Source: an uncultured Clostridia bacterium (GTDB taxonomy: Bacteria > Bacillota > Clostridia > Lutisporales > Lutisporaceae). From it: DNA of 45,290 nucleotides. Positions within the stretch are counted from its first letter, which is position 1. Every line of letters begins with the position of its first letter. The DNA lies in NCBI GenBank assembly GCA_937930535.1, contig CALGKJ010000196.1:1-45290 (forward strand). Direction: 5' to 3'. The notes below the pieces were generated by a model. It saw only the letters and a program-made list of their open reading frames with translations, was not told the DNA's origin and did not search any database. Shown one piece after another: positions 22,211-38,917 of the stretch. A program made the position numbers and the translations under genes.

Positions 22211-22220
22211 TAAATAATAT

Positions 22221-22297
<77 letters not shown>

Positions 22298-22302
22298 AAT
22301 AT

Positions 22303-22379
22303 GGCGGCGTAGCTCAGCTGGCTAGAGCACTCGGTTCATACCCGAGCGGTCGTTGGTTCGAATCTGACCGCCGCTACCA
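22303..22379 (+). tRNA. trnM: Elongator-type tRNA (CAT), Met or lysidine-modified Ile
   Basis: The cloverleaf is complete: acceptor GGCGGCG/CGCCGCT, D arm AGCTCAGCTGGCTAGAGC, anticodon arm CTCGGTTCATACCCGAG and T arm with GGTTCGAATC. The CAT anticodon with a fully paired position 1-72 excludes the initiator. Methionine is most likely; tRNA-Ile2, read through lysidine, also has CAT and cannot be excluded by eye. CCA is encoded. Confidence 0.93.
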
Positions 22380-22676: not shown

Positions 22677-23067
22677 CTATTTAAGATAACACAGATACAA
22701 ATAGTCCCCGCCAGCAGATGCATTTAAGTCTGTAGGTATCTTAACATACCCAGCCGGAGCATCTGCATCCTTGCCCTTGATAATTTGTATATGCTTAGTA
22801 GGAGGATTGTGTTTAGGATCCTTTGTGTAGCATAAATATAAATACTTTCCGCCAGCCTTTTCATTCAAATCAATATCGATTTTTGAATACCCTGATGGAG
22901 CAGGCGCATCCTTGCCCTCAACTATTTTAAGGTCAGTAATAGGATAAGCTGTTTCCTCTGCCTTATAACACAAATATAGATAGCTTCCGCCTGCTGCATT
23001 ATTAAGGTCAGTGGGGATTTTTACAAAGTCTGCCGGTGCAGCAGCATTTTTTCCTTTTTTGAAGTTG
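22677..23067 (-). pseudogene. 5'-truncated MABP-repeat protein
   Basis: The - strand encodes three tandem repeats of about 48 residues of the form GK(D/N)A-APA-(Y/F)-KI--DLN--AGG-YLYLCY, which match the MABP (MVB12-associated beta-prism) type. The first repeat starts near 23055; the open frame upstream of it meets a TAG about 25 bases further on, with no ATG, GTG or TTG start and no ribosome binding site. The break coincides with a fragment of the dispersed hairpin repeat (GAAGTTGTTTATCTATA at about 23060). A TTG at 22973 could start a two-repeat product but has no ribosome binding site. I read it as the 3' end of a larger gene that lost its start. Confidence 0.6.
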
Positions 23068-23078
23068 TTTATCTATAT

Positions 23079-23440
23079 CATAATATGATTATACTAGCAG
23101 ACTAATAAATAAGCAGGGGTTTTCCCACGAGTGGTATAAAATAGGCTGTAAGGTACATAATGAGTCAGTTGAAATGCATATCCCCCACTAAACTCATTGT
23201 ATATTTTTTATGTTGTAGAAGTATGGCGAATTATGTTATTATTACCATAAGTCATATAAAAATCAATCTATTATGCTAGATTAATAAACAATTTACACAA
23301 ATAGCTGCAAATAAATTACTATAGAAGCCATATTCTGTGTATAAGATGTTGCATGTGCAACAACTTATACACAAAGATTAATCCAAAATTTTTTTACCCT
23401 TTTTTACAACAAACGACAAAACAGCGGAAGGAGAATGTAC
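23079..23440 (+). promoter_or_regulatory. Upstream region of the biosynthetic cluster with a 38-bp palindrome
   Basis: There is no gene here. At 23336-23373 lies a near-perfect palindrome: TGTGTATAAGATGTTGCA, a TG centre, then TGCAACAACTTATACACA, 18-bp arms with one mismatch. It ends 67 bp before the PKS start codon and is the best candidate operator or leader hairpin for the cluster. No convincing -35/-10 pair stands out beside it; TTTACA at about 23291 with TACTAT 19 bp later is a weak possibility. Confidence 0.6.
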
Positions 23441-26400
23441 ATGGATTCAAAAGAAATTTTACGTGCCATACAAGCAGGTAAAATGAAACCAGAAGATGCA
23501 AGAAAAGAGCTGTTAAATATACTAAAATCAGGAGCAGCACAGAATCCGGCACCTGATTTGCCAGTTGAACCTAAAACAAGTCATACCACATCACCAAAAT
23601 CAAATGAAGTAAATATGCAAATAAAAGACAACGCACACAAATCAGTACAAAAAAAGCTAAACCATATAGAAAACACAGGAATTTCCTACACCCCGGACAA
23701 CAAGCTGCACCTAGACGGCATAGCCGTTATCGGCATGGCAGGACAACTTCCCAAATCAAAAAACCTAGATGAATACTGGAATAATATTTCCAATGGAATA
23801 GATTGTATCTCGGAAATCCCATCGACCCGCTGGCATATAGATGAGCTTTATGACCCAGACCCAAGAGCAGTAAACAAAACCTGCTGCAAATGGGGAGGAC
23901 TTATAGAGGACTATGACAAGTTTGATCCTCAGTTTTTTAACATTGCACCATCAGAAGCAGAGCTGATGGATCCCCAACAGCGTTTGTTCTTAGAAAGCTG
24001 CTGGCACTGCATGGAAGACGCAGGCTTAACCTCACAGACCCTGTCACAAAGCCGATGCGGAGTATTTGTAGGCTGCACTACTGGTGACTATAGTCAAAAC
24101 ATAGGAGACAAAGGACTAAATGCCCAAGGATTGACTGGAAATTCTGTTGCTATTCTCGCAGGAAGAGTTTCATATCTGCTTAATTTGCAAGGCCCCTGCC
24201 TATCCATAGACACCGCCTGCTCATCATCTCTGGTTGCCGTAGCAGAAGCCTGCAACAACCTGAGTCTGGGTAACTGTGATCTTGCCATAGCCGCTGGTGT
24301 ATCCTCCCTGACAGGACCATCCATGTACATAATGTGCAGTAAAGCGGGTATGCTGTCCCCAGACGGAAAATGCTTTGCCTTTGATACACGGGCAAGCGGA
24401 TTTGTACCCGGAGAGGGAGTCGGAGTTGTTTTGCTGAAAAGACTCAAGGATGCTGTCAGAGACAAGGATCATATATATGCAGTTATTCGAGGCTGGGGAG
24501 TAAATCAAGATGGCAAAACCAACGGAATCACCGCACCAAGCGTAAAATCTCAAATTGCCTTGGAAAAAGACGTATACAGCCGTTTTCACATAAACCCCGA
24601 AACTATTTCAATAATCGAAGCACAGGGTACAGGCTCAAGACTTGGCGATCCAATAGAAGTAGAAGCCCTTACAGAAGTATACAACAACTACACCAACAAA
24701 AAAAATTACTGTGCGCTGGGATCAGTAAAAAGCAATATAGGACATCTGTTTGGAGCAAGCGGAATAGCAGGCTTTATTAAGCTTACCCTTTCACTGCACA
24801 AACAAATGCTTCCCCCAACTATAAATTTTGAAAAACTAAACGAACATATCAATATAGAGGGCAGTCCCTTCTATATAAACACCAAGCTCCAGTCATGGGA
24901 TACAGCACAGGCTGTCCCAAGGCGTGGGGCTGTCAGTGCTTTCGGCTTCAGCGGTACAAACGCACACATAGTACTGGAAGAATATGCGGCGGAAAATAAT
25001 TCTAGCAAAATGCTCAAAATTAACCCTGACAATCCAATATTATTTGTGCTGTCTGCCAAAACAGAAGGACGCCTGAAAGCCTACGCACAGCATATGCAAA
25101 GCTACATCAAGTCCCAAGCTGATCTGAACCTTAAAAACATGGCATACACACTAATGACAGGACGTGACGAAATGGACTGGCGGCTTGCCTTTACAGCCGG
25201 CAGTACACAAGAAATCCTGCAAAAGCTGGACGGATTTATCCGCCATGACACATCCTGCGGCATTACAGCCAATAAAATAAACAAAAAACAAATAGACTCC
25301 AACCTAAGAAACAAAGAAAACACAAGCTCAATACTGCAAAGCCTTAACAGCAAAGATATGCTTTTAAAAGCAGCCGAAATGTGGATAAAAGGTGCAAGCA
25401 TTGATTGGAATACATTATACACAGAAGAAAAGCCAAGGCGAATCAGTCTGCCCAAATACCCCTTTGAAAGAACACGCTGCTGGATAGAACAAGTCAAAGC
25501 AATAGACTCTGACGGCAGTCAGCCAATACACATACACAGCACTGATGAAGCAATGGACTCAGACGTTACATATGAAAATCTAACACTAGAAACAATCACT
25601 GAAAAAATACACAAAATAGCCGCAAAGGTATTAGGAATACCAAAAGAAGACATAGACGCCGAGCAGGAGCTGACAAAATACGGCTTACATTCAATAAACG
25701 GCATGAACCTGATAGATGCAGTAAAAAAACAATATGGAGTGCAGCTAACCTCAAAAGAAATCTATGAAAACAACTCAGTAAACCAACTGGCTCAATACCT
25801 GCTTACCCAAAAGGGCTTAAAACAAAGAATAAATATAACCCAGGAAAAACCAAAAACACCAGTACACATAGAAAGGCAAAAGCCCTCAAGCTTTCCACTA
25901 TCACTAACCCAAAAAAGCTTGTGGATACTGCACCAGTGGAAGCCGGACAACTATGCATACAATCTTCCTGTTGCTTTTAAAATTAAAAAGGAGATTAATA
26001 TAGAAGCCCTGAAATCCGCCTTTAAAAAGCTTATTATGCGTCATCCTCTGCTGGGTGCAAGAATAACTTTGAAAGAACATGAACCAATCTGCATAATACA
26101 AGACGAAAACAACTTCTGCTTTTCAGCAGAAAGACTGACCAACCTATCAGAGACAGACTTAAACAATTACCTTGTAGAAATAGCAAGGCAGCCCTTTGAC
26201 TTGGAAAAAGGACCTTTAATGAAGGTTTACCTGTTTTCAACAACAGATAATCAATACATTTTATTTATAAACATTCACCACATAGTATTTGATGGAAGCT
26301 CTATGCCCATTCTGGTAAATGAGCTGCCACACTTCTATGAAGCCGAAATAACAAACAGAGAAAACACGCTTCCGCAGCTTACTGCCTCCTATGCTGACTA

Positions 26401-27334
26401 TGTAGACTGGCAGTACAAATTGGTTGAAAGCAGTGAGGGACAAAAGCTTAAGGAATACTGGCTGAGCAAGCTAAAGGGTGAGCTGCCAGTGCTTAAACTG
26501 CCTGTCAAGGCAGAAAGAACAGAAAACACCTCCTTCAAGGGGACAACCTATTCAAAGGATATAAGCTGTGAACTGACAGAAAAGCTTCAAGAGCTGAGTC
26601 TGCAAAAAAAAGTATCACCCTTTGTGCTGATGCTCTCAGTTTTCAACGTCCTGCTATACAAATACACCAATCAAGAAGATCTAATAGTAGGAACAGTATT
26701 ACAAGGAAGACCCGAATCAACATATGCAGACTTAATAGGACTATTTACAAATGCAGTAATTATCAGATCAACCCTGAATGCAGGGGCAGCCTTTGACGAG
26801 CTGCTGAGACAAATTCAAAATAGCGTATTTGAAGCCTTAGAGCATGGAAACTATCCATTTTCAGAAATAAGCAAGGTTAAAGGCAGTCAAAATAGAAGCA
26901 ATACCCCTTTAATACAAATAATGTTCCTTTTCCAGAACTGGATGAAGGACACCAGCCAGTTTTCGACATCCAAGCAGACAGAAGAGGCGGATAATACCCT
27001 AAGCTTGGAGCATATGCCAGAGATACATCAGGAAGGAGAGTTTGAAATAACCCTTGAAATAATGATGAGCAGCAGCACATACAAAATGCTGTTCAAATAC
27101 AATGACGAGCTGTTTGAAAGAGAGTTTATCGAAAGCATGTGCGACAGCTATATAGAAGCCTTAAACTCAATCACTGCCAATAGTGAAACCAAGCTTGAAC
27201 AAATAAACTGCATTAAGGATATTGACAAATGGGGAATAAACAAAACCGCTGAATACAACAATGACCAGCAACAAAAAGCTCAGCAAGCCAAAGCGAAAAG
27301 CAAGGTCAAATCAGTTTACAAGGTACGTACCTAA
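23441..27334 (+). CDS. Hybrid PKS-NRPS protein: KS(H to Q)-ACP-C, no acyltransferase
   Basis: This first enzyme of the cluster is an assembly-line protein of 1297 residues. An N-terminal segment (DSKEILRAIQAGKMKPEDARKELL) resembles helices preceding trans-AT-type ketosynthases. The KS spans about 90-515, with the active Cys at 260 in DTACSSS and His435 in NIGH. The first catalytic His is replaced by Gln395 (EAQGTG for EAHGTG; codon CAG at 24623), so decarboxylative condensation is unlikely. A post-KS linker follows. The carrier domain spans about 705-795 with phosphopantetheine Ser751 in GLHSING. A condensation domain runs from about 825 to the end, with an intact HHIVFDG (946-952). No AT, KR, DH or adenylation domain is present. 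ATG 23441 is correctly spaced from GGAGA. I infer acyl loading by the KS0 and amide formation by C with the next protein's substrate. Confidence 0.93.
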   Translation: MDSKEILRAIQAGKMKPEDARKELLNILKSGAAQNPAPDLPVEPKTSHTTSPKSNEVNMQIKDNAHKSVQKKLNHIENTGISYTPDNKLHLDGIAVIGMAGQLPKSKNLDEYWNNISNGIDCISEIPSTRWHIDELYDPDPRAVNKTCCKWGGLIEDYDKFDPQFFNIAPSEAELMDPQQRLFLESCWHCMEDAGLTSQTLSQSRCGVFVGCTTGDYSQNIGDKGLNAQGLTGNSVAILAGRVSYLLNLQGPCLSIDTACSSSLVAVAEACNNLSLGNCDLAIAAGVSSLTGPSMYIMCSKAGMLSPDGKCFAFDTRASGFVPGEGVGVVLLKRLKDAVRDKDHIYAVIRGWGVNQDGKTNGITAPSVKSQIALEKDVYSRFHINPETISIIEAQGTGSRLGDPIEVEALTEVYNNYTNKKNYCALGSVKSNIGHLFGASGIAGFIKLTLSLHKQMLPPTINFEKLNEHINIEGSPFYINTKLQSWDTAQAVPRRGAVSAFGFSGTNAHIVLEEYAAENNSSKMLKINPDNPILFVLSAKTEGRLKAYAQHMQSYIKSQADLNLKNMAYTLMTGRDEMDWRLAFTAGSTQEILQKLDGFIRHDTSCGITANKINKKQIDSNLRNKENTSSILQSLNSKDMLLKAAEMWIKGASIDWNTLYTEEKPRRISLPKYPFERTRCWIEQVKAIDSDGSQPIHIHSTDEAMDSDVTYENLTLETITEKIHKIAAKVLGIPKEDIDAEQELTKYGLHSINGMNLIDAVKKQYGVQLTSKEIYENNSVNQLAQYLLTQKGLKQRINITQEKPKTPVHIERQKPSSFPLSLTQKSLWILHQWKPDNYAYNLPVAFKIKKEINIEALKSAFKKLIMRHPLLGARITLKEHEPICIIQDENNFCFSAERLTNLSETDLNNYLVEIARQPFDLEKGPLMKVYLFSTTDNQYILFINIHHIVFDGSSMPILVNELPHFYEAEITNRENTLPQLTASYADYVDWQYKLVESSEGQKLKEYWLSKLKGELPVLKLPVKAERTENTSFKGTTYSKDISCELTEKLQELSLQKKVSPFVLMLSVFNVLLYKYTNQEDLIVGTVLQGRPESTYADLIGLFTNAVIIRSTLNAGAAFDELLRQIQNSVFEALEHGNYPFSEISKVKGSQNRSNTPLIQIMFLFQNWMKDTSQFSTSKQTEEADNTLSLEHMPEIHQEGEFEITLEIMMSSSTYKMLFKYNDELFEREFIESMCDSYIEALNSITANSETKLEQINCIKDIDKWGINKTAEYNNDQQQKAQQAKAKSKVKSVYKVRT

Positions 27335-27388
27335 AGCAAGTATACACCATACAAGACTTAACATTCGCTGTGAAGTGGAGGGAATATA

Positions 27389-29221
27389 GTGGATAAAACT
27401 TACAAGGAGCAACAACAAACAGAACAAACAATAGTAAAGCAATTTGAAGAACAAGCTGTCAAGCACTCAGAAAAAATAGCAGTAAAATCCTGCAGCAAAG
27501 AACTCACATACAAAGAGCTGAACAATACAGCAAACAAATTCGCAAGACTAATAGCAATGAAGCAGAAGCCCCAAAGCACAGTTGCTTTACTATACGAGCA
27601 TGAAGCAGATATGATCATAGGCATACTAAGCGCACTAAAAACAGGCTCAATATATGTACCCCTAGATCCCACATACCCAGAAAACAGACTGCAATACATG
27701 CTCCAAGACTCAGCCGCAGCCATAATAGTTACAAATAACAAAAACATAAATCTAGCACAAAAGCTTGCGGAAAAATCAGAAACCAATATAAGCATCATTA
27801 ATACAGATTTCATAGATAATGGATCAGAAGATGAAAACCTCAATATAAATATACGTCCAGACCAGACCGCATATATAATATACACCTCAGGCTCCACAGG
27901 GAACCCAAAGGGAGTAATGCAGAGTCATAAAAATGTAGTATTTCACGTAAATGCATTTATAAAGGGATTACATATGACCCATTCAGACAAGCTTGCTTTG
28001 TTTACCTCCTACAGCCATACAGTAGGAATATTAGATATCCTTGGTATGCTATTCTGCGGAGGAACAGTATACCCCTATGATATAAAAAAGGACGACAGCC
28101 TGAAGAATATGTCAAATTGGCTTAAAACAGAAGAAATAACAATATTCCATTCAGTACCCACACTATTCCGTCATTTTACCAAAATGCTTGGAAAGCAAGA
28201 CACCTTTGAAAAAATGCGAATCATAATGCTGGGTGGAGAAGCCGTATACAACAGAGACTTTGAGCTGTACAAAGCCTATTTCTCAGACAACTGCAAATTC
28301 GTAAATATACTAGGCTCAACAGAAGTTATGGTAACAACCTTCGATATCTCAGACAAGCAGGCACAGCTGTCAAGCACAGCAGTACCAGCAGGCTATCCAA
28401 TCCAAGGAGTAGATATATTACTGCTGGACGACAACGATAAACAGGTATCAGAACAAGAAATAGGAGAGCTTGTATACAAAAGCCAATATCTGGCGCAAGG
28501 CTATAACAATCTGACAGAAAAAACCAACGAGGTATTTACACCAGACCCCATAACAGGAGAAGGGCGGGTATACAGAAGCGGCGATATAGGGCGGATATTG
28601 GCAGACGGCAGACTAGAATATCTAGGGAGAAAGGACTCCCAAATAAAAATCAGAGGCTACCGCATAGAACCCGGAGAAATAGAAAACAAAATACTAAAAC
28701 ACCAAAAGGTCAAAGAAGCTGTAGTAGTAGCAAAAGAAGATGCAAACGGAGACAAATATCTCTGTTCCTATATAGTCACAGAGGATGACCTTGATATACA
28801 AGAGCTGGCTGACAGCTTAGGGGTGGAACTGCCAAGCTATATGCTGCCTGCATACTTTGTAGAGCTTGAGGAAATGCCCCTTACAGCAAACGGCAAAATA
28901 GACATCAAGGCACTGCCCGAGGTTGAGGAGCATTCAGCAACCGCAGAATACGAAGCCCCAAGAAACTATATAGAAGAAAAACTTGCAGAAATATGGAGCA
29001 GTGTACTAAGCGTAGAAAAAGTCGGAATACACGATGACTTTTTTGCACTGGGAGGAAGCTCTATAAACTCACTCCGCATAGTATCAAAGGCAGCCGAATA
29101 TAACATCAAAATAACAGTCGGAGATATATTAAACAACAAGACCATAGCAAATATAGTAAAAATGCTTAACCTAGGCAAAGCACAGGACAACAATCAAGAC
29201 GAAGAAACAATACTATTCTAA
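27389..29221 (+). CDS. NRPS adenylation-carrier (A-PCP) protein, probable aryl-acid loading
   Basis: This protein of 610 residues has an adenylation domain (about 15-515), with YTSGSTGNPKGVM, GSTE, GYPIQGVDI, YRSGDIGR, YLGRKDSQIKIRGYRIEPGEIE and the catalytic Lys region TANGKIDIKALP. A carrier domain follows (about 530-600, Ser558 in LGGSSINSL). Aligned by eye to GrsA, the ten pocket positions read roughly T-V-L-H-M-G-I-V-T-K. Asp235, which holds the alpha-amino group of amino acids, is absent, pointing to a substrate without an alpha-amino group, such as an aminohydroxybenzoate. It begins at GTG 27389 after GGAGGG. With the C domain of the preceding protein it completes one split C-A-PCP module. 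Confidence 0.94.
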   Translation: MDKTYKEQQQTEQTIVKQFEEQAVKHSEKIAVKSCSKELTYKELNNTANKFARLIAMKQKPQSTVALLYEHEADMIIGILSALKTGSIYVPLDPTYPENRLQYMLQDSAAAIIVTNNKNINLAQKLAEKSETNISIINTDFIDNGSEDENLNINIRPDQTAYIIYTSGSTGNPKGVMQSHKNVVFHVNAFIKGLHMTHSDKLALFTSYSHTVGILDILGMLFCGGTVYPYDIKKDDSLKNMSNWLKTEEITIFHSVPTLFRHFTKMLGKQDTFEKMRIIMLGGEAVYNRDFELYKAYFSDNCKFVNILGSTEVMVTTFDISDKQAQLSSTAVPAGYPIQGVDILLLDDNDKQVSEQEIGELVYKSQYLAQGYNNLTEKTNEVFTPDPITGEGRVYRSGDIGRILADGRLEYLGRKDSQIKIRGYRIEPGEIENKILKHQKVKEAVVVAKEDANGDKYLCSYIVTEDDLDIQELADSLGVELPSYMLPAYFVELEEMPLTANGKIDIKALPEVEEHSATAEYEAPRNYIEEKLAEIWSSVLSVEKVGIHDDFFALGGSSINSLRIVSKAAEYNIKITVGDILNNKTIANIVKMLNLGKAQDNNQDEETILF

Positions 29222-29241
29222 GAAGCGGGGTGAATACGAAC

Positions 29242-31842
29242 ATGAACCAACTTATGCAATATTTACAATACTGTGCATACACCTCCCAGCATCCAATCAC
29301 ATTTTCGGGAGACAGACCAAACGTACTAAACAGATGGCTTGTAAAAAAAGAGCAGATAAACGGGAGCTTAGAAGAAAGCACTCAACCATACATAAAACCT
29401 GACTTTAATATATTTGCACCGCCCAGTGAAAACCACAAAAACTGGAGGTACTACACCTCCAGCCATGAAGCCTCATCCTACTATCAAAATAATGCAGAGG
29501 AACTTTTTACTGAGGACGAAGACAAATGCATATATTATATGTGCAATGTTTTCTGCAAAGAGGACAAAAACCTGATCGCCTATATATGGCGCTTTAACAC
29601 CCCCATGAGAGTATGGATAAACGGAGAACTGGTTGTCAACTACTCATACACCTTTAACAACCACTCCAACCTGTTTATATACAACTTCAAAAAAGGAGAC
29701 AACATAATACTTGTTGAAAGACAAGTTTACCCAAAATACAAAAGTCTGGGAGTATTCTGTGAAGGCTTCGAGTTTACCTTTAAACCCGTTGACTACTACA
29801 AAACCCAAGAGCCGGAAGACATATACGACGAAAACGTTATAGAAGCATGTTACAGCACCTACAGCATTTTACCCCACAGAGCCATATACAGCACAGCCCA
29901 GAGCATAAAGCTTATGGTACTGCCCAAATACTTTGAAAATAACAAAACAGAAGACATAAAAATAAGCATATACGACTACAAAAACACACTGATCAAAACC
30001 TTTGTTGAAACAACCTCCAAAATATTCGAGCTGGATCTGGAGCAAAGCATAAAAGGCGTAATACAAATAAAAGCAGAAAGCCTGATCAACGAAAAAAAAT
30101 GCTCCCATCTCCATATTTTCAGGGGAGACTTCATACAAGAACGAAACCAGCTAATAAAAGCTGCCGAAAACAGAAAGGATTGTAGTGAGGAGCTGCTAAG
30201 CACCTTTAAAAAGCTGGGAAAAATACCAGCACTCTGCAACACCTGCGGCGAACTGCACCAAGAATACCTATACAACTATTTATTTATAAAATACTCAGAA
30301 TTTCAAAACTATCTGGATACCAATGACAGCAACACACAAAAAAACATTTTTGATGTATTCAAAAAAAGCGCACTGCTGTTTAAAGATAATGACATAGACG
30401 ACAGCTTTATAGCCTACGGCATATATTTGCCAGAAAACTATAAGCCTGACAAAAAATACCCTCTGGTAGTAACCATGAGAAGAGGAATGCTGCTGTCAGT
30501 ATTTCCAAACCCTCGTACATACGTAGACAAGCACCAGTTTGAGGATGCCATAATCCTTAATATGCCCGGCAGAGGTGACCTGAATCTGGATTATATAAAC
30601 GAAATAAACTGCTTCGAGATAATAAAAAAGGTATGTGAGGATTTTGACATTGATAAAGACAGATTATACTTTATCGGCGAATGTGCAGGCGCAACAAAAG
30701 CCTATGGAATGCTCCTGAGAAAGCCGGATCTGGCTGCTGCTGTTTCAGTATCAGGACTGCCAAGAATAACAAGCCTTGAAGAACTGAAAAACCTCAGCAA
30801 TACAACAATACACGATATATGCAACGTCGATAACCACAAGCTTCCAAATATAGCCTCGCTATATATACTTAGGGATATGAAAAAAGCAAAAAACTGGCTT
30901 GTAACCAATCTAACACACCTTGAACTGCCGGAAATATACAACAATAGAAAAGTATTCGAAAACATCATAGCAGAAAAAAAAGACAAATATCCGAAGCTAG
31001 TACACTTTTACACAAAGGAACCCTACTACAACAAAGCTTACTGGGTAAAGCTGGACTATATCAGCGATCTAACAAAAAAAGCATATATAAAAGCAGAAAT
31101 AAAGAATAACTTGCTTATAGAGATAATCACAGAAAACATTCAGCAAATCAGCCTCTATCTCAGCAAAAAATATATGGAGCTGGAAACGGAAATAGCTGTA
31201 ATAGTTAACAATAAAAACCACAATATCACCATAAATAACTATTCAAAAGTAGAAATATCAACAAAAGAGGATATAAAAGCAAGAGTTATTGAGCTAAGCG
31301 AAGAAGAATTTGAGAAACACTATAACAGCCTTGAACTTGACCATAAGCTAATGGGCATAAAGCAGACCTATCTGAAAAAATGCATCATAATAAAGCCAGA
31401 GCAGATACAAAGCACCAGCTTTACAGACCAAATGCTGTATGCACTGCAAAACCCATTAAAGGAATTTGTCACAAACTACAAATATGAGCAGATACAAGGC
31501 GCAAAGGCTGATGCAGACCTGTTAAGCACAACCAACTATGTATATTTCAATGATGCAAGACAGCTTACCCACAATGACAGAAAGCTCTTTATCAAGGACA
31601 CAAATATATCAATAGAAGCAGATAGCATTAGCCTCAACCACAATAAGTTTGAAGGAGAATATTTTGCAGTAGTAAAATGCCCCAACCCATATAACAAGGA
31701 CAAGACAGCTTTATTTGTAATATACAACAATGAAAAGCTGGAAGCAGAGCTAAGAGGCTTCTGGGAATCCTACTACATAAATCTTATTTTCCACAGTAAT
31801 GCAGTTGTTTACAACAATGGGGAATATCACTCAATTAGGTAA
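29242..31842 (+). CDS. Large protein with alpha/beta-hydrolase domain and Cys nucleophile, probable release enzyme
   Basis: This is an 866-residue protein with a beta-rich N-terminal region (about 50-300; WRFNTPMRVWINGELVVNYSY resembles a jelly-roll module), a central alpha/beta hydrolase domain (about 385-640), and an uncharacterised C-terminal third. The hydrolase part reads IAYGIYLPENYKPDKKYPLVVTM, then ILNMPGRGDLN, and the nucleophile elbow FIGECAGATKAYGM. The canonical GxSxG serine is Cys at residue 481, as in PHA synthases and some Cys-type thioesterases. PHB-depolymerase or prolyl-oligopeptidase-type relatives are likely; no signal peptide is seen. Its place 20 bp after the A-PCP gene suggests it offloads or transacylates the PCP-bound product. 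I use ATG 29242 after GCGGGGTGA. Confidence 0.8.
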   Translation: MNQLMQYLQYCAYTSQHPITFSGDRPNVLNRWLVKKEQINGSLEESTQPYIKPDFNIFAPPSENHKNWRYYTSSHEASSYYQNNAEELFTEDEDKCIYYMCNVFCKEDKNLIAYIWRFNTPMRVWINGELVVNYSYTFNNHSNLFIYNFKKGDNIILVERQVYPKYKSLGVFCEGFEFTFKPVDYYKTQEPEDIYDENVIEACYSTYSILPHRAIYSTAQSIKLMVLPKYFENNKTEDIKISIYDYKNTLIKTFVETTSKIFELDLEQSIKGVIQIKAESLINEKKCSHLHIFRGDFIQERNQLIKAAENRKDCSEELLSTFKKLGKIPALCNTCGELHQEYLYNYLFIKYSEFQNYLDTNDSNTQKNIFDVFKKSALLFKDNDIDDSFIAYGIYLPENYKPDKKYPLVVTMRRGMLLSVFPNPRTYVDKHQFEDAIILNMPGRGDLNLDYINEINCFEIIKKVCEDFDIDKDRLYFIGECAGATKAYGMLLRKPDLAAAVSVSGLPRITSLEELKNLSNTTIHDICNVDNHKLPNIASLYILRDMKKAKNWLVTNLTHLELPEIYNNRKVFENIIAEKKDKYPKLVHFYTKEPYYNKAYWVKLDYISDLTKKAYIKAEIKNNLLIEIITENIQQISLYLSKKYMELETEIAVIVNNKNHNITINNYSKVEISTKEDIKARVIELSEEEFEKHYNSLELDHKLMGIKQTYLKKCIIIKPEQIQSTSFTDQMLYALQNPLKEFVTNYKYEQIQGAKADADLLSTTNYVYFNDARQLTHNDRKLFIKDTNISIEADSISLNHNKFEGEYFAVVKCPNPYNKDKTALFVIYNNEKLEAELRGFWESYYINLIFHSNAVVYNNGEYHSIR

Positions 31843-31910
31843 AGGCTGAAAATATACAAATAAATATTCCAAAGGGTAAATAAATAAGAAATAATATTGG
31901 AGGACTTGCG

Positions 31911-33272
31911 ATGATTAAAAGAGAATGCGGTTGTATCCGTGAATATCTTAAAACTGCAATTAGTAATTGCCATCTGCCCAGCTATATATATGGATACCCT
32001 TCAAAACGGGCATACAGAAAATTTGAAACTCCCATAGATTTGAAGGAAGTTTGGGGAAAGCAAAAAGGCAATCTGAATCTATACATACACATTCCCTTCT
32101 GCAACTATAAATGCACCTACTGCACACTGCTGTCGGCAAAAATAAACGATGAGTCCCTGATAAAAGCCTACAATCAAGCACTTATAAGAGAAATAAAAGA
32201 GTACGGAAAAATTGCCGGACACATGACAGTTGACTCCATCTACCTTGGAGGAGGAACCCCCACAATACTATCCAAGCCCCAGCTAAAAGAGCTGTTTGAC
32301 GCAGTAACAGACAATTTTCCCAATATTGCACAAGATGCAGAAATAGCTATAGAAGGCTCTCCCGAAACACTAGACTTGGATAAGGTAAGGTTTTTAAAGG
32401 AAATAGGCGTAAACAGAGTAAGCATGGGAATACAGACACTAAACAAGGAAGAACTCAAAAAAACGGGCAGACAGCACTCCATTGAAGAATCAATACAAGC
32501 CATAAACAATATAAAACAAGTAGGCTTTAAAAACTTCAATCTGGATTTAATATACGGACTGGAAAACCAAACAAAGGAAACCTGGCTGGAATCCCTGCAA
32601 AAGACCATTGAATTCAAGCCTAACTCAATGAATTTATATCCCGTAGTAATAAGACCACTGGCAGGAATACAAAAAGCAAAAGAACAAAACAGCGACAAAT
32701 TTATAACAGACGACTCCAAATACGAGCTATATGACATAAGCTGTGAATATATGTATCAGAACGGCTATCACCAAGAAACCTTCGTAAGCTTTACAAAGCT
32801 CAAAGAAGACAGCTATAAGCAGCAGGTAAGCGATTTTCAAGGCAATCCCCTGATAGGTATAGGAGCAAGCGCAAGAAGCTACACAAACACCCTCCACTAC
32901 AGCACTGACTACGTAGTAACAAAGAGATCCACCCTGAACATTATTTCCGACTACTGCCAAAAGGGCTTTGAAAACCTTATATCCCACGGCTTTGAGCTTG
33001 ACATGGACGAGCAGAAAAGGAGAAGCGCAATACTCAACCTCATAATAAGCAGACTCAACGCACACGAATACAAGAAAAAATTTGACAGCGACATATGGGA
33101 GGAATTTGGACAAGAGCTTAAAGCAATGGAAGAAGAAGGCTGTATAGAAACAAACAAACAATCCGGTCAAATAAGCCTAACCCAAAAAGGCTTCAAATAC
33201 AGCAGTATCTTAGGCAGCATATTTTATTCAGAAAAAGTAAAAGAGCTTGAAAAGAACTACACAGACAAGTAG
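31911..33272 (+). CDS. HemN/HemW-like radical SAM protein
   Basis: This radical SAM enzyme has 453 residues. The iron-sulfur motif CNYKCTYC gives Cys64, Cys68 and Cys71 in the context LYIHIPFCNYKC, typical of the HemN/HemW branch. The SAM-binding LGGGTPTIL and the strands MGIQTLNKEELKKTGRQHS and NLDLIYGLENQT are also family-typical, and a HemN C-terminal domain (about 360-440) is present. A 50-residue N-terminal extension precedes the usual start. Within a PKS-NRPS cluster such proteins are often class C radical SAM methyltransferases or cyclopropanases rather than haem enzymes; no haem genes are nearby. The assignment to tailoring is inference. Confidence 0.88.
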   Translation: MIKRECGCIREYLKTAISNCHLPSYIYGYPSKRAYRKFETPIDLKEVWGKQKGNLNLYIHIPFCNYKCTYCTLLSAKINDESLIKAYNQALIREIKEYGKIAGHMTVDSIYLGGGTPTILSKPQLKELFDAVTDNFPNIAQDAEIAIEGSPETLDLDKVRFLKEIGVNRVSMGIQTLNKEELKKTGRQHSIEESIQAINNIKQVGFKNFNLDLIYGLENQTKETWLESLQKTIEFKPNSMNLYPVVIRPLAGIQKAKEQNSDKFITDDSKYELYDISCEYMYQNGYHQETFVSFTKLKEDSYKQQVSDFQGNPLIGIGASARSYTNTLHYSTDYVVTKRSTLNIISDYCQKGFENLISHGFELDMDEQKRRSAILNLIISRLNAHEYKKKFDSDIWEEFGQELKAMEEEGCIETNKQSGQISLTQKGFKYSSILGSIFYSEKVKELEKNYTDK

Positions 33273-33303
33273 AAGCGTAAAATACCCCTTAAAGCTAAAT
33301 TAC

Positions 33304-33354
33304 TATAGAGAAACAACTTTAAAATTGAATTTTACCAGTTGGCTATCTATAAAA
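33304..33354 (+). repeat. Hybrid copy of the dispersed hairpin repeat
   Basis: AGAGAAACAACTTTAAAATT matches the left half of hairpin 1, but the right half CCAGTTGGCTATCTATAA matches the end of hairpin 2. This looks like a deletion derivative of the 102-bp unit, lying between two genes of the cluster. Confidence 0.7.
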
Positions 33355-33368
33355 ACGGAGGAATATAA

Positions 33369-34325
33369 ATGAATCAAAACAGCAGTGAACAAAACAACTC
33401 ATCAAAGATATTTTGGGAAAACAGCTACAAGGACAAAGCAATATCCACCTTTGGAGGCCCAAGCATAGAAGTATACGAAATGCTCCCATTAATAATCCCA
33501 GAACAAAAGGTAGTAGACTTAGGCTGCGGAGAAGGCAGAAATGCACTATTTCTTGCACAGCATGGCTGTAAAGCAACAGCCGTTGACATATCAAGCTCAG
33601 GTATAGAAAAAGTAAAGCTGGCAGCAAGCACCCTAGGCGTTGAAATCAACACAATGGTATGCGACCTTAATGACTATAAAGCGGATGACAGCTATGATAT
33701 AGTTTTAGCTCATACCTCAGTACATTTTCTTACAAATTCAAAATGGAGAGAGCTTCTGGGTGAGCTAAAGGAAAGAACCAACCCCGGAGGACTACATTCA
33801 TTAACCATATTTTTAGATACCCCCAAATACCCGCTGCCCTCCGAGATTCTAGCTATAGGACATAAACAGTCCTTTGCGGCAGGTGAGCTAAAGGAGTTTT
33901 ACGGCGATTGGGAAATAATCCGTTACGACGCATACTTAAAGCAGGACAAGCATCCCGGAATACCCATGCACTCCCACTATGTGGAAAAAATACTATGCAG
34001 GAAAAATACAGATATAAGTAAGCGCGGCAAGGACTATACATACAAGTCCCTATACTCAGGCGAGCACGATCTATCTATGGAGATATTCGATAAGGTTCAA
34101 ATAGGAGACGATGAACAAACAGTACGTAGAATTTGCGGCGAGCCTAAGCTGATAAATGAAGTAGATTTCGGAAAAGCAGTAGGAGCAAGAGAAATTGTAG
34201 AAACCAAATACATACTAAGGGATTTGTTCTACGGCAAAACCGCATTCCAATTAGCCAATGGCGAAGTAAAAGGAAAGTATATCTATGATACAGAGCCAAT
34301 AAGAGTACTGCCAATTGAAAAGTAA
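33369..34325 (+). CDS. Class I SAM-dependent methyltransferase with C-terminal extension
   Basis: Residues 15-215 form a class I (Rossmann) methyltransferase of the TehB/Methyltransf_11 type: KIFWENSYKD, motif I VVDLGCGEGRNALFLAQHG near 49-67, AVDISSSGIEKVKLAA, and DIVLAHTSVHFLT. A further 100 residues (about 220-318) with DLSMEIFDKVQIGDDEQTV are not part of the methyltransferase fold and I do not recognise them. In the cluster it would methylate an oxygen or nitrogen of the product, or an intermediate. The gene starts at ATG 33369 after CGGAGGAA. Confidence 0.88.
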   Translation: MNQNSSEQNNSSKIFWENSYKDKAISTFGGPSIEVYEMLPLIIPEQKVVDLGCGEGRNALFLAQHGCKATAVDISSSGIEKVKLAASTLGVEINTMVCDLNDYKADDSYDIVLAHTSVHFLTNSKWRELLGELKERTNPGGLHSLTIFLDTPKYPLPSEILAIGHKQSFAAGELKEFYGDWEIIRYDAYLKQDKHPGIPMHSHYVEKILCRKNTDISKRGKDYTYKSLYSGEHDLSMEIFDKVQIGDDEQTVRRICGEPKLINEVDFGKAVGAREIVETKYILRDLFYGKTAFQLANGEVKGKYIYDTEPIRVLPIEK

Positions 34326-34343
34326 AAAGTTGAGGTGATAATA

Positions 34344-35300
34344 GTGTCAAGCTTTCTTATTACAGGTGGTTGCGGATATGTAGGCAGTGCGTTGGCAGAA
34401 TATCTGGCAAAAAAAGGGCACAAGGTAAGATCCTTAGACTTAATAGACCCTGCAAAGCCCATAGACAAGGTTGAATACATAAAAGGAAGCATCAGCAGCA
34501 AGGAAACCATTGATAAAGCACTAAAGGATATTGATTTTGTATATCACAACGCAGTATATGTTCCCTTCTTTTCCAACAAGGAAAAGATGTATGAAATAAA
34601 CATAAAAGGTCTACAAAACCTTTTGGAAGCATGTGTAGAAAACTCCATTAATAAGGTTGTAATAACCTCAAGCAGCTGTATATTTGGAAACAAGGCGCAA
34701 ATGCCCATAAGACACAGCAGCATACCCGAGCCTACAGATAACTATGGACACATACGCCTGCTGGCAGAGGATGTAGCAGCACTATATGCCGGCAAAGGCT
34801 TAAACATAGTCACCCTTAGACCCCATTTGATTGCCAGTGCCGGCAGAGAAGGAATATTCTCCATGATATTCAGCAAAATAGCTGAAAACAAAGACTTGTG
34901 GCTTCCCGAATCCATAAAGCACCCACACCAGTTTATACACATTAATGACTTTGTAAACGCTTTATACAGTGCCTTGGAATACCAAAAGTCCGAAACCTTT
35001 AACATAGGCAGTGAAACCAAGTATACACTGGAACAGTTGATTCAGGAAAGCATACAAAAGGTTAATTCCAAATCCAAGATAAAAATAATACCAAGCTATA
35101 TACTTAAAGCAAGCCAAATGATAGACAAGCTTTTCGGCTGCTCCATATTAGGCTCACACAGCATACTTACAGCCAAAAACGGCTTTGTATTTGAAACCTA
35201 TTATGTAAAAGAACAGCTAAACTGGAAGCCGGAATACTCAGACCACGACACTTGGTTTGACTGCTTTGACTGGTTTTATGAAAACTACAAGAAGCAATAA
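34344..35300 (+). CDS. Extended SDR (NAD-dependent epimerase/dehydratase family)
   Basis: The Rossmann motif is near the N-terminus: FLITGGCGYVGSALAEYLA. The family core follows: DIDFVYHNAVYVP, INKVVITSSSCIFGN, then the catalytic region NYGHIRLLAED and TLRPHLI. The usual YxxxK reads Tyr134-G-H-I-Arg138, so the catalytic Lys is replaced by Arg, which may lower or change activity. The substrate is unknown; sugar-nucleotide, sterol-like and polyketide reductions are all possible. I choose GTG 34344 after GAGGTG rather than GTG 34335, giving 318 residues. It lies 18 bp after the methyltransferase and 26 bp before the HAD gene. Confidence 0.87.
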   Translation: MSSFLITGGCGYVGSALAEYLAKKGHKVRSLDLIDPAKPIDKVEYIKGSISSKETIDKALKDIDFVYHNAVYVPFFSNKEKMYEINIKGLQNLLEACVENSINKVVITSSSCIFGNKAQMPIRHSSIPEPTDNYGHIRLLAEDVAALYAGKGLNIVTLRPHLIASAGREGIFSMIFSKIAENKDLWLPESIKHPHQFIHINDFVNALYSALEYQKSETFNIGSETKYTLEQLIQESIQKVNSKSKIKIIPSYILKASQMIDKLFGCSILGSHSILTAKNGFVFETYYVKEQLNWKPEYSDHDTWFDCFDWFYENYKKQ

Positions 35301-35326
35301 TCAGCCTATAAAACAAGGAGACTAAA

Positions 35327-36019
35327 ATGATAAAAGCCATATTATTTGACTTCTACGGTACAATAGCAGTTTATGGAGATATGCAAAAAGCTGACGAAAA
35401 GGTATCAAGAATCATTTACGATTGCCTTATATCCAAGGATACATCCATTGAATATAAGGATTTTATTAATCAATGGAATCAAATATTCAGCTTACCCCTT
35501 ACGCTTGAAGAAAAAACAGAGGAAACAATATTCCTTACAAAAATATCAAGTATATTTAAACAATACAATATACCCTATAACACAGCAGAAATAACAGAAA
35601 CAGGAGAAAAATGTCTAAATATATGGCAGTCATATATAAGCTTTCCAGAAGATATGCACAAAACCTTTGAAGCTCTAAAAACCAAATACACACTGGCACT
35701 TATATCAAACTTTGACCACCCCAAGCATATAAGAAAGCTGCTGCAAGATACAGACATTATCCGATACTTTGACGCAATTGCTATATCCGGAGAAATAGGA
35801 ATAAGCAAACCCGATACAAGGATATTTCAAAAAATACTAAAGGAGCTTAAGCTAAAGCCCAACCAAGCGGTATTTGTGGGCGACAGTATAGCAGATGATA
35901 TAACAGGAGCACAAAATGCCGGATGCAAAACCATCCTGATAGATATGCACAACCGCTTTCAAAGCTACAGCGGAAGCAGAATATCCAAAATCTCGGATTT
36001 GATAGATTATCAGATTTAG
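35327..36019 (+). CDS. HAD-superfamily hydrolase
   Basis: This 230-residue HAD subfamily IA protein has motif I LFDFYGTI (nucleophile Asp8, with Tyr10 in place of the common second Asp, as in YjjG-like and haloacid dehalogenase-like members). Motif II is ALISNF, motif III SKPDTRIFQ, and motif IV FVGDSIADDITGAQNAG. An alpha-helical cap lies between motifs I and II. It probably removes a phosphate or halide from a small metabolite; in this cluster a phosphorylated intermediate is the simplest idea, but nothing fixes the substrate. GGAG precedes the ATG. The MITE-like element starts 45 bp downstream. Confidence 0.88.
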   Translation: MIKAILFDFYGTIAVYGDMQKADEKVSRIIYDCLISKDTSIEYKDFINQWNQIFSLPLTLEEKTEETIFLTKISSIFKQYNIPYNTAEITETGEKCLNIWQSYISFPEDMHKTFEALKTKYTLALISNFDHPKHIRKLLQDTDIIRYFDAIAISGEIGISKPDTRIFQKILKELKLKPNQAVFVGDSIADDITGAQNAGCKTILIDMHNRFQSYSGSRISKISDLIDYQI

Positions 36020-36054
36020 AACTGAAACCTTACACATTCATTATTAAACTAATT

Positions 36055-36319
36055 AAATCACTAACATATGCGTTAACTTAAGCCGGTTATACCAATATGC
36101 TGTAAATATAACTTTTCGGAAGTTGTTTACATCCACGAAGCCTAACCCGAGAGGCAGCACAGCAATTTATATGAAATACCTCAATATAATAAGCATCATA
36201 TAATGTTAGTTGTTTCATATTCTTAAGGTGCTGCTTTTGTAAACAACTGTAGAAAAATTATATTTACAGCCAGAGATTTGTAAAATTATAGCTTAAGTTA
36301 ACCCATATGAAATCACTAA
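36055..36319. mobile_element. MITE-like 245-bp inverted-repeat element with 10-bp target duplication
   Basis: The element at 36065-36309 begins CATATGCGTTAACTTAAGC and ends GCTTAAGTTAACCCATATG, 19-bp terminal inverted repeats with one mismatch. The pairing continues inward: GCTGTAAATATAACTTTTCG and GGAAGTTGTTTAC (to 36130) face GTAAACAACT and ATTATATTTACAGC (from 36239), and a further inner pairing (GGCAGCAC/GTGCTGC) is present. The flanks are AAATCACTAA at 36055-36064 and again at 36310-36319, an exact 10-bp direct repeat. There is no transposase inside. It splits the cluster between the HAD gene and the DHQ-synthase-like gene. Confidence 0.88.
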
Positions 36320-36338
36320 TAGAAAGGAAACATAAGCC

Positions 36339-37436
36339 ATGAAAAAACAAGTATGGTTTGACGCCCGTGAAACTAGCCCCCAAGACGGCGTAATTTTACC
36401 TTATATATATAACTCAAATCTAGACACTATAGTAGTAAAAGCAGAAAACAGAAGTCTATACAAAGCACCCATGAAAAGTATATTCGTTGTTGATATAAAA
36501 ACAGAAAAAGACTTGGAGCAGGTAAAAAAAGAAGACATACTGATGTCAGACAACGAAGCACTGCTGAAAAAAGCCCATGACAACGGAAACAAAACCTGTA
36601 TCTACCTGACCGTAAATGACAAGGAAAGCTTGGAAAACGCATGGAAAATAGGGCTTAACTACAACTATGTAGTAATAGAATTTGAATCAGAAACCAATAT
36701 TCCTCTGGAATTAGTTATAGCAAGACTGCAAAAAACAAACACCACCCTTTTGAAAAAGGTTGACAATGCAAGTGATGCCGAAATAGCCTTTGGTGTTATG
36801 GAGCATGGAAGCGATGGTGTAATGCTCTCTACAAAGGTATTGGAGGAAGTCGTAATGCTGCAAAAAACAATAAACAAATATCAAGCCCAAAAAGTTACTA
36901 TTCTCCCCGGAAAAGTAAAGCAGATAGAACATATAGGAATGGGACACAGAGCATGTATAGACACAACCTCACTAATGCAGCCAAACGAAGGCATGATAAT
37001 AGGCTCACTATCACAGGGCGGTATACTGGTCAGCTCAGAAACGCACTTTCTGCCATATATGAACCTAAGACCCTTTAGAGTAAATGCCGGTGCTGTACAC
37101 TCCTATGTATGGTGTCCCAACAATACAACCGAGTACATCACAGACCTGAAGTCAGGAAGCAAGGTACTGGTTATTGACAATGAAGGAAATGCACGAGAAG
37201 TATCCGTAGGCAGGATCAAAACAGAAGTAAGACCCCTTTTGAAAATAACAGTAGAAGTAAATGAAATTGAAATAAGCACAATAGTTCAAGACGATTGGCA
37301 TATACGTGTTTTGGGAATCAACGGCGAGCCATATAACGCCTCATGCCTTACACCGGGAACTATACTTGCCGCCTATGTATGTGAGCCCGGCAGACACGTA
37401 GGAATAAAGATAGATGAAAGCATACTAGAAAAGTAA
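36339..37436 (+). CDS. griH-like: DHQ synthase II-like cyclase (GriH type), 3-amino-4-hydroxybenzoate pathway
   Basis: This is a full-length (365 residues) member of the archaeal-type 3-dehydroquinate synthase II family. The diagnostic C-terminal half contains GMGHRACIDTTSLMQPNEG, GSLSQGGILVSSETH, and LRPFRVNAGAVHSYVWCP. In archaea the family closes the shikimate precursor ring; in actinobacteria the homologue GriH cyclises the GriI aldol product to 3-amino-4-hydroxybenzoate. It is paired with a GriI-type aldolase 15 bp downstream inside an NRPS cluster, in a bacterium that would normally use AroB. For that reason I favour the GriH role, making the cluster's aryl building block. GAAAGGAAA precedes the ATG. 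Confidence 0.9.
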   Translation: MKKQVWFDARETSPQDGVILPYIYNSNLDTIVVKAENRSLYKAPMKSIFVVDIKTEKDLEQVKKEDILMSDNEALLKKAHDNGNKTCIYLTVNDKESLENAWKIGLNYNYVVIEFESETNIPLELVIARLQKTNTTLLKKVDNASDAEIAFGVMEHGSDGVMLSTKVLEEVVMLQKTINKYQAQKVTILPGKVKQIEHIGMGHRACIDTTSLMQPNEGMIIGSLSQGGILVSSETHFLPYMNLRPFRVNAGAVHSYVWCPNNTTEYITDLKSGSKVLVIDNEGNAREVSVGRIKTEVRPLLKITVEVNEIEISTIVQDDWHIRVLGINGEPYNASCLTPGTILAAYVCEPGRHVGIKIDESILEK

Positions 37437-37450
37437 AGGAGGTCAGTGCA

Positions 37451-38260
37451 ATGATAGGCAAAAAAATCAGACTAAGCAATATAATCAATCCCGAAACAAA
37501 CCGTACCTGCATAATACCTATGGATCACGCAGTAACACTTGGCGCAATAGCTGGACTTGATAATAATCTGGATACAATAAAATCCGTAGCCAGAGGAGGT
37601 GCTGATGCAATAGTGCTTCACAAGGGAGTGTTTAAGCTGATTGCAGACTTACCAGAAGCTTCCAGTAAATGCAGCTTTTTATACCATATCTCTGCTTCCA
37701 CCTGCTTATCTCGTGACTCCAATAACAAACGCTTAGTCAGTACAGTTGAACAAGCAGTAAAAGCAGGTGCCGCTGGTGTTTCAATACACGTAAATCTTGG
37801 TTCAGAAACTGAAAGCGATATGCTGATAGACTTTGGCGCAGTGTCGGATGCCTGTATGGACTGGGGAATGCCCCTGCTTGTTATGATATACGTTAGAGGA
37901 AACAATCTGGATTCCTTCAGCGTACAAAACATAGCCCATGCCGCAAAGCTTGCAGAAGAGCTTGGCGCAGATATAATAAAAGTAAACAGCCCCGCAAGCC
38001 CCAAGGATATAAGCACAGTAGTAAACTGTGTAAAAACACCAGTAGTAATAGCAGGAGGAGCTAAAACCTCAATAGTCGAGCTGATAAACCATGTAAATGA
38101 GGTATTAGAAGCAGGAGCCAGCGGAGTCTCAATAGGCAGAAACATCTTCCAGACTCAGCATGTGGAAGAAACCACCAGAATACTAAGCGACCTGATACAT
38201 AATAGACTGTCATACACCGATGCAGTATTAAAGGTCAAGGAAGAATTAAGACTTGAATAA
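37451..38260 (+). CDS. griI-like: DhnA/FbaB-type class I aldolase (GriI type), 3-amino-4-hydroxybenzoate pathway
   Basis: This 269-residue TIM-barrel aldolase is of the archaeal fructose-bisphosphate aldolase / ADH synthase family. IPMDHAVTLGAIAGL is the signature near the N-terminus; the Schiff-base Lys is predicted at 177 in DIIKVNSPASP, and the phosphate-binding ends are IAGGAKTS and GASGVSIGRNIFQ. GriI condenses aspartate semialdehyde with dihydroxyacetone phosphate to start aminohydroxybenzoate synthesis; the related archaeal enzyme makes 2-amino-3,7-dideoxy-heptulosonate. Both donors come from primary metabolism. It lies 15 bp after the cyclase gene, with AAAGGAGG before the ATG, so the two are cotranscribed. 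Confidence 0.9.
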   Translation: MIGKKIRLSNIINPETNRTCIIPMDHAVTLGAIAGLDNNLDTIKSVARGGADAIVLHKGVFKLIADLPEASSKCSFLYHISASTCLSRDSNNKRLVSTVEQAVKAGAAGVSIHVNLGSETESDMLIDFGAVSDACMDWGMPLLVMIYVRGNNLDSFSVQNIAHAAKLAEELGADIIKVNSPASPKDISTVVNCVKTPVVIAGGAKTSIVELINHVNEVLEAGASGVSIGRNIFQTQHVEETTRILSDLIHNRLSYTDAVLKVKEELRLE

Positions 38261-38292
38261 AAAGCTGAGAAATATAAGAAGGGAGCAGTACT

Positions 38293-38640
38293 ATGTCAGA
38301 AAATACGGATAAATTAGTAGTACTATGGACAAGCAGTGACAGAGAAGTCGCCCTCAAAATGGTATTTATGTATACACAAAACTCAAAACTGAGAGGCTGG
38401 TGGAAGGACGTAACACTGATAGTATGGGGACCATCCTCCAAGCTCCTTAGTGAAGACAACGAGCTGCAAATGTATGTACAATCCATAAAAGGAGTAGGCG
38501 TAGAGGTAGTTGCCTGCAAAGCTTGCGCAGACGAATACGGCATTACTGCCGATCTGGAAGCCCTGAATATAGAAGTTAAATATATGGGTGAGCCTCTGAC
38601 CGCCTACCTAAAGGAAGGCTTAAAGGTCATAACCTTCTAA
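38293..38640 (+). CDS. DsrE-like small protein
   Basis: This 115-residue protein resembles the DsrE/DsrF-like fold: VVLWTSSDREVALKMVFMYT, LIVWGPSSKLLSEDNELQ, then VEVVACKACADEYGI, whose CxxC-A-G arrangement is typical, and VKYMGEPLTAYLKEG. DsrE-like proteins bind or relay sulfur through conserved cysteines, or simply bind small molecules; here Cys residues about 76 and 79 are candidates. It is the last gene of the cluster and follows the aldolase by 32 bp, so it may serve the aminohydroxybenzoate branch. Its role is unknown. Confidence 0.75.
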   Translation: MSENTDKLVVLWTSSDREVALKMVFMYTQNSKLRGWWKDVTLIVWGPSSKLLSEDNELQMYVQSIKGVGVEVVACKACADEYGITADLEALNIEVKYMGEPLTAYLKEGLKVITF

Positions 38641-38917
38641 AAAACAGCATAAAGAAACTGCCAGCAGACCTACTGCGGGCAGTTTTCTTTGCTTTGCCCA
38701 TTTTAAGCTGTTCAATGGACTTTAAAAGTTCGTTGTAATATTCAGGATTACTTCTTACATATAGATTTTCTAATAGGTTATTATACTCGGATTCTGACAT
38801 CATCACTACGTTTTCTCCACGCCCACGAGTAATAATTATTGTTTCAAAGTCATTTGTCGCTTTATCGCAGTACTCTTTAAAATGCTGTCTCACTACCGAA
38901 TAACTTGTAGCTATCAT
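38627..38917 (-). CDS. Orphan Phd/YefM-type antitoxin with altered C-terminus
   Basis: Residues 1-70 match the Phd/YefM antitoxin fold: IATSYSVVRQHFKEYCDKATNDFETIIITRGRGENVVMMSESEYNNLLENLYVRSNPEYYNELL. Such proteins bind their own operator and neutralise a YoeB-type RNase. The last 20 residues (KKTARSRSAGSFFMLFFRRL) are read through the terminator hairpin shared with the cluster and look unlike an antitoxin tail, and no toxin gene follows. I infer that the 3' end and the toxin were lost when the neighbouring cluster or its end was joined here. Expression signals remain: GGAGGTGATT before the ATG and a TGTACA-containing operator. Confidence 0.8.
   Translation of the reverse strand: MIATSYSVVRQHFKEYCDKATNDFETIIITRGRGENVVMMSESEYNNLLENLYVRSNPEYYNELLKSIEQLKMGKAKKTARSRSAGSFFMLFFRRL
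38651..38690. terminator. Shared terminator between the cluster and the convergent antitoxin
   Basis: AAAGAAACTGCC pairs with GGCAGTTTTCTTT around AGCAGACCTACTGCG. T or A runs on both sides allow bidirectional termination. It lies within the 3' end of the - strand antitoxin frame. Confidence 0.8.

Follow-up and report, generated by a model that had tools for sequence, protein, structure and literature searches.

A predicted operon for an N-acylated 3-amino-4-hydroxybenzoate at a variable tRNA–spoIIE site in an uncultured member of the Clostridia

The 45,290-nucleotide stretch of DNA analyzed here (the window; contig CALGKJ010000196.1 of assembly GCA_937930535.1, which is C196 of the 252 contigs of a 4.69-Mb genome) carries ten plus-strand open reading frames between positions 23435 and 38640, which we read as one operon. 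We consider it fairly probable that the operon is an insertion and directs the biosynthesis of an N-acylated 3-amino-4-hydroxybenzoate (3,4-AHBA). It encodes a ketosynthase–acyl carrier protein–condensation (KS-ACP-C) protein, an adenylation–peptidyl carrier protein (A-PCP) didomain, a large hydrolase, a radical S-adenosylmethionine (SAM) enzyme, a methyltransferase, a short-chain dehydrogenase/reductase (SDR), a HAD-superfamily hydrolase, a cyclase, an aldolase and a DsrE-like protein. The initial annotation had named these functions, and all ten genes are present. Pfam and NCBIfam assign families to nine of them, the exception being the third gene, which encodes the 870-residue hydrolase; most genes match at E-values of 1e-20 to 1e-106, so the family matches do not arise by chance. 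The initial annotation was also right in seeing no obvious transporter or regulator: the interval 23435–38640 contains neither.

Predicted supply and loading of 3,4-AHBA

The genes of the 3-dehydroquinate synthase II-type cyclase and the DhnA-type aldolase are adjacent, 14 bp apart. A canonical aroB is present in the same genome (one PF01761 gene, contig C165), so the cyclase is unneeded for the shikimate pathway. This disposes of the case that the initial annotation had set against its own proposal of a 3,4-AHBA building block, namely archaeal-type shikimate enzymes in a genome lacking aroB. The cyclase family exceeds the cut-off in only three others of 391 genomes of the class, all three from one genus. 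Clostridial relatives at polyketide synthase (PKS) and nonribosomal peptide synthetase (NRPS) loci share 52–55% identity with the cyclase and 45–46% with the aldolase. The best relatives of the cyclase came from scanning the contigs of all genomes. A tree of 85 cyclases places it in a group of modest support (91/76) together with seven others, which are AHBA synthases from PKS/NRPS clusters and include those of Acetivibrio straminisolvens, Chitinophaga, a KSB1 bacterium, HGW-Firmicutes-7 and two clostridial genomes with adjoining PKS genes. This supports a predicted role of the aldolase–cyclase pair in making 3,4-AHBA as a building block.

The sister clade comprises 39 cyclases (100/100) and leaves the window cyclase outside. 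Where its neighborhoods were read (L033, L058 and L050), PaaK-like ligases are found in all three and Amidohydro_2 in L033 and L058. Judging from these three loci and the tree, gene sets of the closoxazole type appear to be widely distributed among Bacillota (Heliobacteria, Peptococcaceae, Metabacillus and others).

The A domain of the A-PCP protein, whose carrier serine is Ser558, has Thr211 aligned to the amino-group-binding aspartate of linear gramicidin synthetase and lacks an equivalent of Asp235. The absence of an aspartate at the α-amino-binding position characterizes aryl-acid A domains and is common to the clade in which this domain falls (100/100). That clade holds seven A domains from five loci, each with an AHBA synthase: besides the window, Chitinophaga sp. 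Ak27 (L034, one domain), HGW-Firmicutes-7 (L035, two), KSB1 (L065, two) and Acetivibrio straminisolvens (L073, one). Its members have the motifs SHTV..DI, HSVPT-like and GS[ST]E in common. Other A domains of the same AHBA loci fall outside the clade. On plasmids, the top A-domain match comes from Nostoc; it carries neither the signature nor a neighboring cyclase gene. The association of the clade with AHBA synthases suggests 3,4-AHBA as the substrate rather than proving it.

The gene order around the A-PCP protein recurs elsewhere. In Chitinophaga a KS-AT-KR-DH-ACP-C protein (AT, acyltransferase; KR, ketoreductase; DH, dehydratase) is followed by A-PCP, cyclase and aldolase; in KSB1 a KS-ACP-ACP-C protein is followed by A-PCP and cyclase, with the aldolase one gene further. 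Such an order of ACP-C, A-PCP and cyclase in unrelated phyla fits a C-A-PCP module split over two proteins, with the aryl amine as nucleophile, and supports the predicted N-acylation of carrier-bound 3,4-AHBA. At L035 (1–9920), two AHBA-type A domains lie in neighboring NRPS proteins, which suggests an oligo-arylamide product.

Predicted acyl transfer and release, and the proposed pathway

The KS has Cys262 and His437, and carries Gln397 at the histidine position of HGTGT (EAQGTGS). It is followed by an ACP (Ser753) and a C domain with an intact HHIVFDG motif at 948, and has no AT. It most resembles KSs of the trans-AT type encoded in the same genome and in another clostridial genome, and the N-terminal segment of the protein resembles that of a trans-AT PKS paralogue. 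The nearest own-genome paralogue (C8:54158–60544; 52% identical over KS-ACP-C) keeps the histidine and belongs to a PKS cluster that also has discrete ATs and genes resembling those of HMG-CoA synthases. EAHGTGT or a close histidine-keeping variant occurs in nearly all other KSs examined, including those of L034 and L065; the exceptions are two KS-ACP-C paralogues of the same genome (EAFGSGT) and one KS of another genome (EAQATGT). Trans-AT KSs lacking this histidine have been described as non-elongating (KS0; PMC6855096). By motif, the window KS departs from the Cys-His-His set of elongating PKSs and has the KS0 arrangement, a histidine-less KS followed by a carrier with no AT; it is thus probably non-elongating and would hand on an acyl chain made elsewhere. 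Of the PKS label in the initial annotation, the KS-ACP-C protein stands; the EAHGTGT motif is missing, so this PKS may be non-elongating.

The two EAFGSGT proteins (L133, C14:16394; L134, C50:2342) suggest that NRPS lines recurrently begin with KS0-ACP-C. With the KS-ACP-C protein as query, 156 places in the host genome match KS or condensation domains, and 37–94 in each of six AHBA-bearing genomes searched likewise. The host genome thus abounds in assembly lines, and it also encodes discrete acyltransferases. The PKS on contig C8 (for example C8:24066–66633) is of the trans-AT type and includes a cassette read by eye as HMG-CoA-synthase-like.

The 870-residue hydrolase gives no Pfam hit, and its match to polyhydroxybutyrate depolymerases/esterases at residues 459–532 is weak. 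Its predicted nucleophile is Cys485 in GECAGA, in line with the Cys-type hydrolase first annotated, and Cys485, Asp534 and His563 form a candidate triad. A full-length homologue (35–40%; in three pieces, with a broken frame in a draft assembly) lies in the Acetivibrio AHBA locus and conserves all three residues. This co-occurrence in two AHBA loci links the hydrolase to AHBA chemistry, and we predict a release or acyl-transfer enzyme. A search of 391 genomes of the class found weak core-domain matches only; a single-sequence AlphaFold model (pLDDT 30) is unusable.

The pathway that we propose, inferring all reactions, the source of the acyl group and the position of one-carbon transfer from the observed gene content, motifs, conserved order and homology, would begin with aspartate semialdehyde and dihydroxyacetone phosphate, from which aldolase and cyclase would form 3,4-AHBA. 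The A-PCP protein would adenylate 3,4-AHBA and keep it as a thioester. The KS would move an acyl chain from another carrier (a fatty acid ACP or another PKS of the same genome) onto its own ACP; acyl transfer rather than condensation is proposed because the KS lacks the histidine needed for decarboxylative condensation. The C domain would then place the acyl group on the aryl amine of AHBA-PCP, much as para-aminobenzoate NRPSs do; NRPS coupling of aminobenzoates is established for the cystobactamids (PMC7966384). The large Cys hydrolase would release the product, and the radical SAM enzyme with its methyltransferase partner would add a one-carbon unit from SAM.

Several points weigh against this scheme. 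It accounts for no role of the SDR, HAD and DsrE-like proteins, and the loss of the KS histidine could reflect decay. The AHBA aryl amine is ortho to the hydroxyl and meta to the carboxyl, unlike that of para-aminobenzoate. The A-domain loci were chosen for holding a cyclase, so that the linkage may be overestimated, and the outside control is small; enzyme roles and A-domain substrate are predicted from sequence.

Putative tailoring genes and alternative readings

The radical SAM enzyme is HemN-like across most of its length (HemN 1olt, E 8.5e-43; NocN, E 1.7e-31), and its CX3CX2C motif together with this similarity places it among HemN-like class C enzymes. The adjacent methyltransferase gives the gene pair the make-up of C10P/C10Q of CC-1065, a cyclopropanase formed by a HemN-like enzyme and a class I methyltransferase (PMC6050322); a phenolic substrate is possible for both. 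A lone HemN-like enzyme can also methylate an aromatic (PMC9714029). The likeness to C10P/C10Q is one of gene make-up, beside a weak match to the YtkW structure 9w6x (E 6e-7). Closest to the window pair is an uncharacterized rhizobial one: a gene pair conserved on symbiotic plasmids from Rhizobium and Cupriavidus taiwanensis is 42–43% (radical SAM enzyme) and 38–40% (methyltransferase) identical to it, end to end, and its methyltransferase also has the C-terminal extension. A methyltransferase profile found no full-length relative in 398 Bacillota, 398 Pseudomonadota (a sample without a positive control) and 25 named genomes, and our literature search found no paper linking STM4012 with radical SAM. 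The plasmid pairs (STM4012 plus methyltransferase; L178 14980–17297, L177, L179 and L180) have cbb3 oxidase genes near the three Rhizobium copies, not near that of Cupriavidus.

It is conceivable, on a highly tentative reading, that the AHBA amide, which bears a phenol, is the substrate of the pair, with addition of a SAM-derived methylene and phenolate-driven ring closure to a cyclopropane or spiro-dienone. If true, no earlier case of a reactive group of this kind would be known from an anaerobe, and 3,4-AHBA would be the basis of a new chemotype. Alternatively, the pair may, together with the SDR, HAD and DsrE-like proteins, make a separate block from a primary metabolite and leave the AHBA amide untouched. 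On the plasmids, the two genes overlap and stand alone (once with a major facilitator superfamily gene), with no AHBA or NRPS gene adjoining, so the ancestral substrate was probably not AHBA. But in the window the pair is encoded within a single operon, downstream of the hydrolase gene and upstream of the AHBA genes, and both readings are compatible provided that such a block is accepted by the A or C domain. We regard a separate block as possible, though on balance unlikely.

The A-PCP protein has no C domain of its own, and might instead be a loading module that passes a 3,4-AHBA starter to the KS for extension, as in manumycin- or cuevaene-type assembly. Starter units of 3,4-AHBA exist in actinomycetes, and the KS retains Cys262 and His437. 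However, the HGTGT histidine is missing, the cluster has no AT, KR or other extension domain, and an intact C domain closes the KS protein, with the ACP-C, A-PCP order repeated in L034 and L065. Extension from such a starter is therefore doubtful.

The initial annotation predicted an N-acyl-aminohydroxybenzoate or a benzoxazole. The A-domain clade and the recurrent ACP-C, A-PCP, cyclase order favor the former. For the latter, an ortho-hydroxyanilide is the right precursor, and N-acyl- or N-aroyl-AHBA could cyclize as in closoxazole, which Clostridium cavendishii builds with the same 3,4-AHBA pair using an amidohydrolase and PaaK-like ligases (PMC12118335). Both the clx cluster of this anaerobe and pfx of Pyxidicoccus contain that pair. 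Unlike them, the window has no condensing amidohydrolase and no stand-alone PaaK-like AMP ligases, has carrier proteins in KS-ACP-C and A-PCP, and its cyclase lies outside the closoxazole-type clade. A benzoxazole is accordingly quite unlikely. Membership in the closoxazole type itself was rejected: the ten genes include no Amidohydro_2 and no two stand-alone PaaK-like ligases.

Decay of the operon, with the product no longer made, would account for the changes of KS His to Gln, SDR Lys to Arg and the second HAD Asp to Tyr, and for an insertion resembling a miniature inverted-repeat transposable element (MITE) between the HAD and cyclase genes. Yet all ten frames are open, most have ribosome-binding-site-like sequences, and the other catalytic residues are intact; a histidine-less KS is a known functional type in trans-AT PKSs, with two paralogues in this genome. 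Decay thus seems very doubtful. An archaeal-type shikimate route for the cyclase and aldolase, which their Pfam and NCBIfam names would allow, was rejected as highly improbable on canonical aroB, operon context and tree position.

Genomic setting and relation to known clusters

The operon (Table 1) lies between a tRNA cluster, conserved in the same order in four relatives, and spoIIE, which is followed by a vWA protein, a kinase and tilS. Two genomes of the same family have only ~0.3–0.4 kb between the last tRNA and the spoIIE frame; a same-genus genome has a glycoside-hydrolase-like gene there, and a fourth genome a PKD-domain protein. A site that is near-empty or otherwise filled in relatives indicates that the operon is an insertion at a variable site. 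The sign of the GC skew switches across the operon; among the repeats listed, no att-like direct repeat of the tRNA end was seen at the right border. Sporulation genes and relatives point to a host within the Clostridia that would be anaerobic. At the left edge of the insertion, a short minus-strand frame (22677–22973) has MACPF beta-prism/MVB12-like repeats and is perhaps a gene fragment; at the right edge, a Phd/YefM-type antitoxin gene (38627–38917, minus strand) has no evident toxin partner.

Intergenic gaps are 8–96 bp, except for 319 bp upstream of the cyclase gene. Most of this gap is filled by the MITE-like element (245 bp; 19-nucleotide inverted ends at 36065–36083 and 36291–36309, inside an exact 10-bp duplication, AAATCACTAA), which folds as one long hairpin (−82.6 kcal/mol, z −9); the HAD and cyclase genes were thus originally close together. 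The palindrome upstream of the first gene occurs once across the window and the ~180 kb of this genome that were examined, and is a possible regulator site. An Rfam scan of the interval returned tRNAs only, plus one sub-threshold chance match.

Table 1. Features of the operon and of its insertion site
Feature	Position	Strand	Remark
tRNA-Leu, tRNA-Met, tRNA-Met	22123–22379	+	left border of insertion
Near-perfect palindrome	23336–23373	.	18-nt arms (18+18 nt), 94% complementary, TGTGTATAAG.TGTTGCA; 60 bp upstream of first gene; possible operator
KS-ACP-C protein, 1299 aa	23435–27334	+	Pfam, motifs, paralogue
A-PCP didomain, 610 aa	27389–29221	+	predicted 3,4-AHBA-loading
Alpha/beta hydrolase-type protein, 870 aa	29230–31842	+	predicted release or acyl-transfer enzyme
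HemN-like radical SAM enzyme, STM4012 family	31911–33272	+	CX3CX2C at residue 64
Class I SAM methyltransferase	33369–34325	+	TehB-like (Pfam/NCBIfam); ~100-aa C-terminal extension; partner of radical SAM enzyme
Extended SDR, epimerase/dehydratase family	34335–35300	+	GGCGYVG site; YxxxR replaces usual YxxxK
HAD-superfamily hydrolase	35327–36019	+	D-x-Y-G-T replaces D-x-D-G-T
MITE-like insertion	36055–36319	.	19-nt terminal inverted repeats, 10-bp direct duplication
3-Dehydroquinate synthase II-type cyclase, GriH/ClxB-like 3,4-AHBA synthase	36339–37436	+	
DhnA/GriI-type aldolase (DeoC/DhnA; 2-amino-3,7-dideoxy-heptulosonate synthase family)	37451–38260	+	invariant Lys177
DsrE-like small protein	38293–38640	+	Pfam
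Terminator-like hairpin, then T-run	38657–38692	+	3' of last gene; read from sequence
spoIIE	39492–41918	+	conserved right border of insertion site

Among known systems, griH/griI of grixazone biosynthesis are the same 3,4-AHBA enzyme pair, but the window lacks genes for phenoxazinone or nitroso chemistry and relies on carrier-protein-based assembly. The cystobactamid and albicidin NRPSs also join acyl groups held on carriers to the aryl amine of an aminobenzoyl-PCP; unlike the window, they use para-aminobenzoate, are multimodular and have neither an AHBA synthase nor a KS0-ACP. The AHBA-NRPS/PKS loci L034, L035, L065 and L073 have an A domain of the same clade beside an AHBA synthase; L034 and L065 also have the ACP-C, A-PCP arrangement and L073 the hydrolase homologue, but in the stretches read none of the four has the radical SAM/methyltransferase pair or the SDR-HAD-DsrE set. 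The initial annotation did not recognize the gene combination, and in a non-exhaustive search of genome collections we found no relative that has the same genes. We conclude that the system is a variant of AHBA-using NRPS/PKS clusters whose product, as predicted here along with its tailoring chemistry, is probably new. The predicted AHBA-loading A domain common to Clostridia, Bacteroidota and KSB1 could guide the mining of genomes for arylamide natural products, and the window shares its rare radical SAM/methyltransferase unit with nodulating bacteria.

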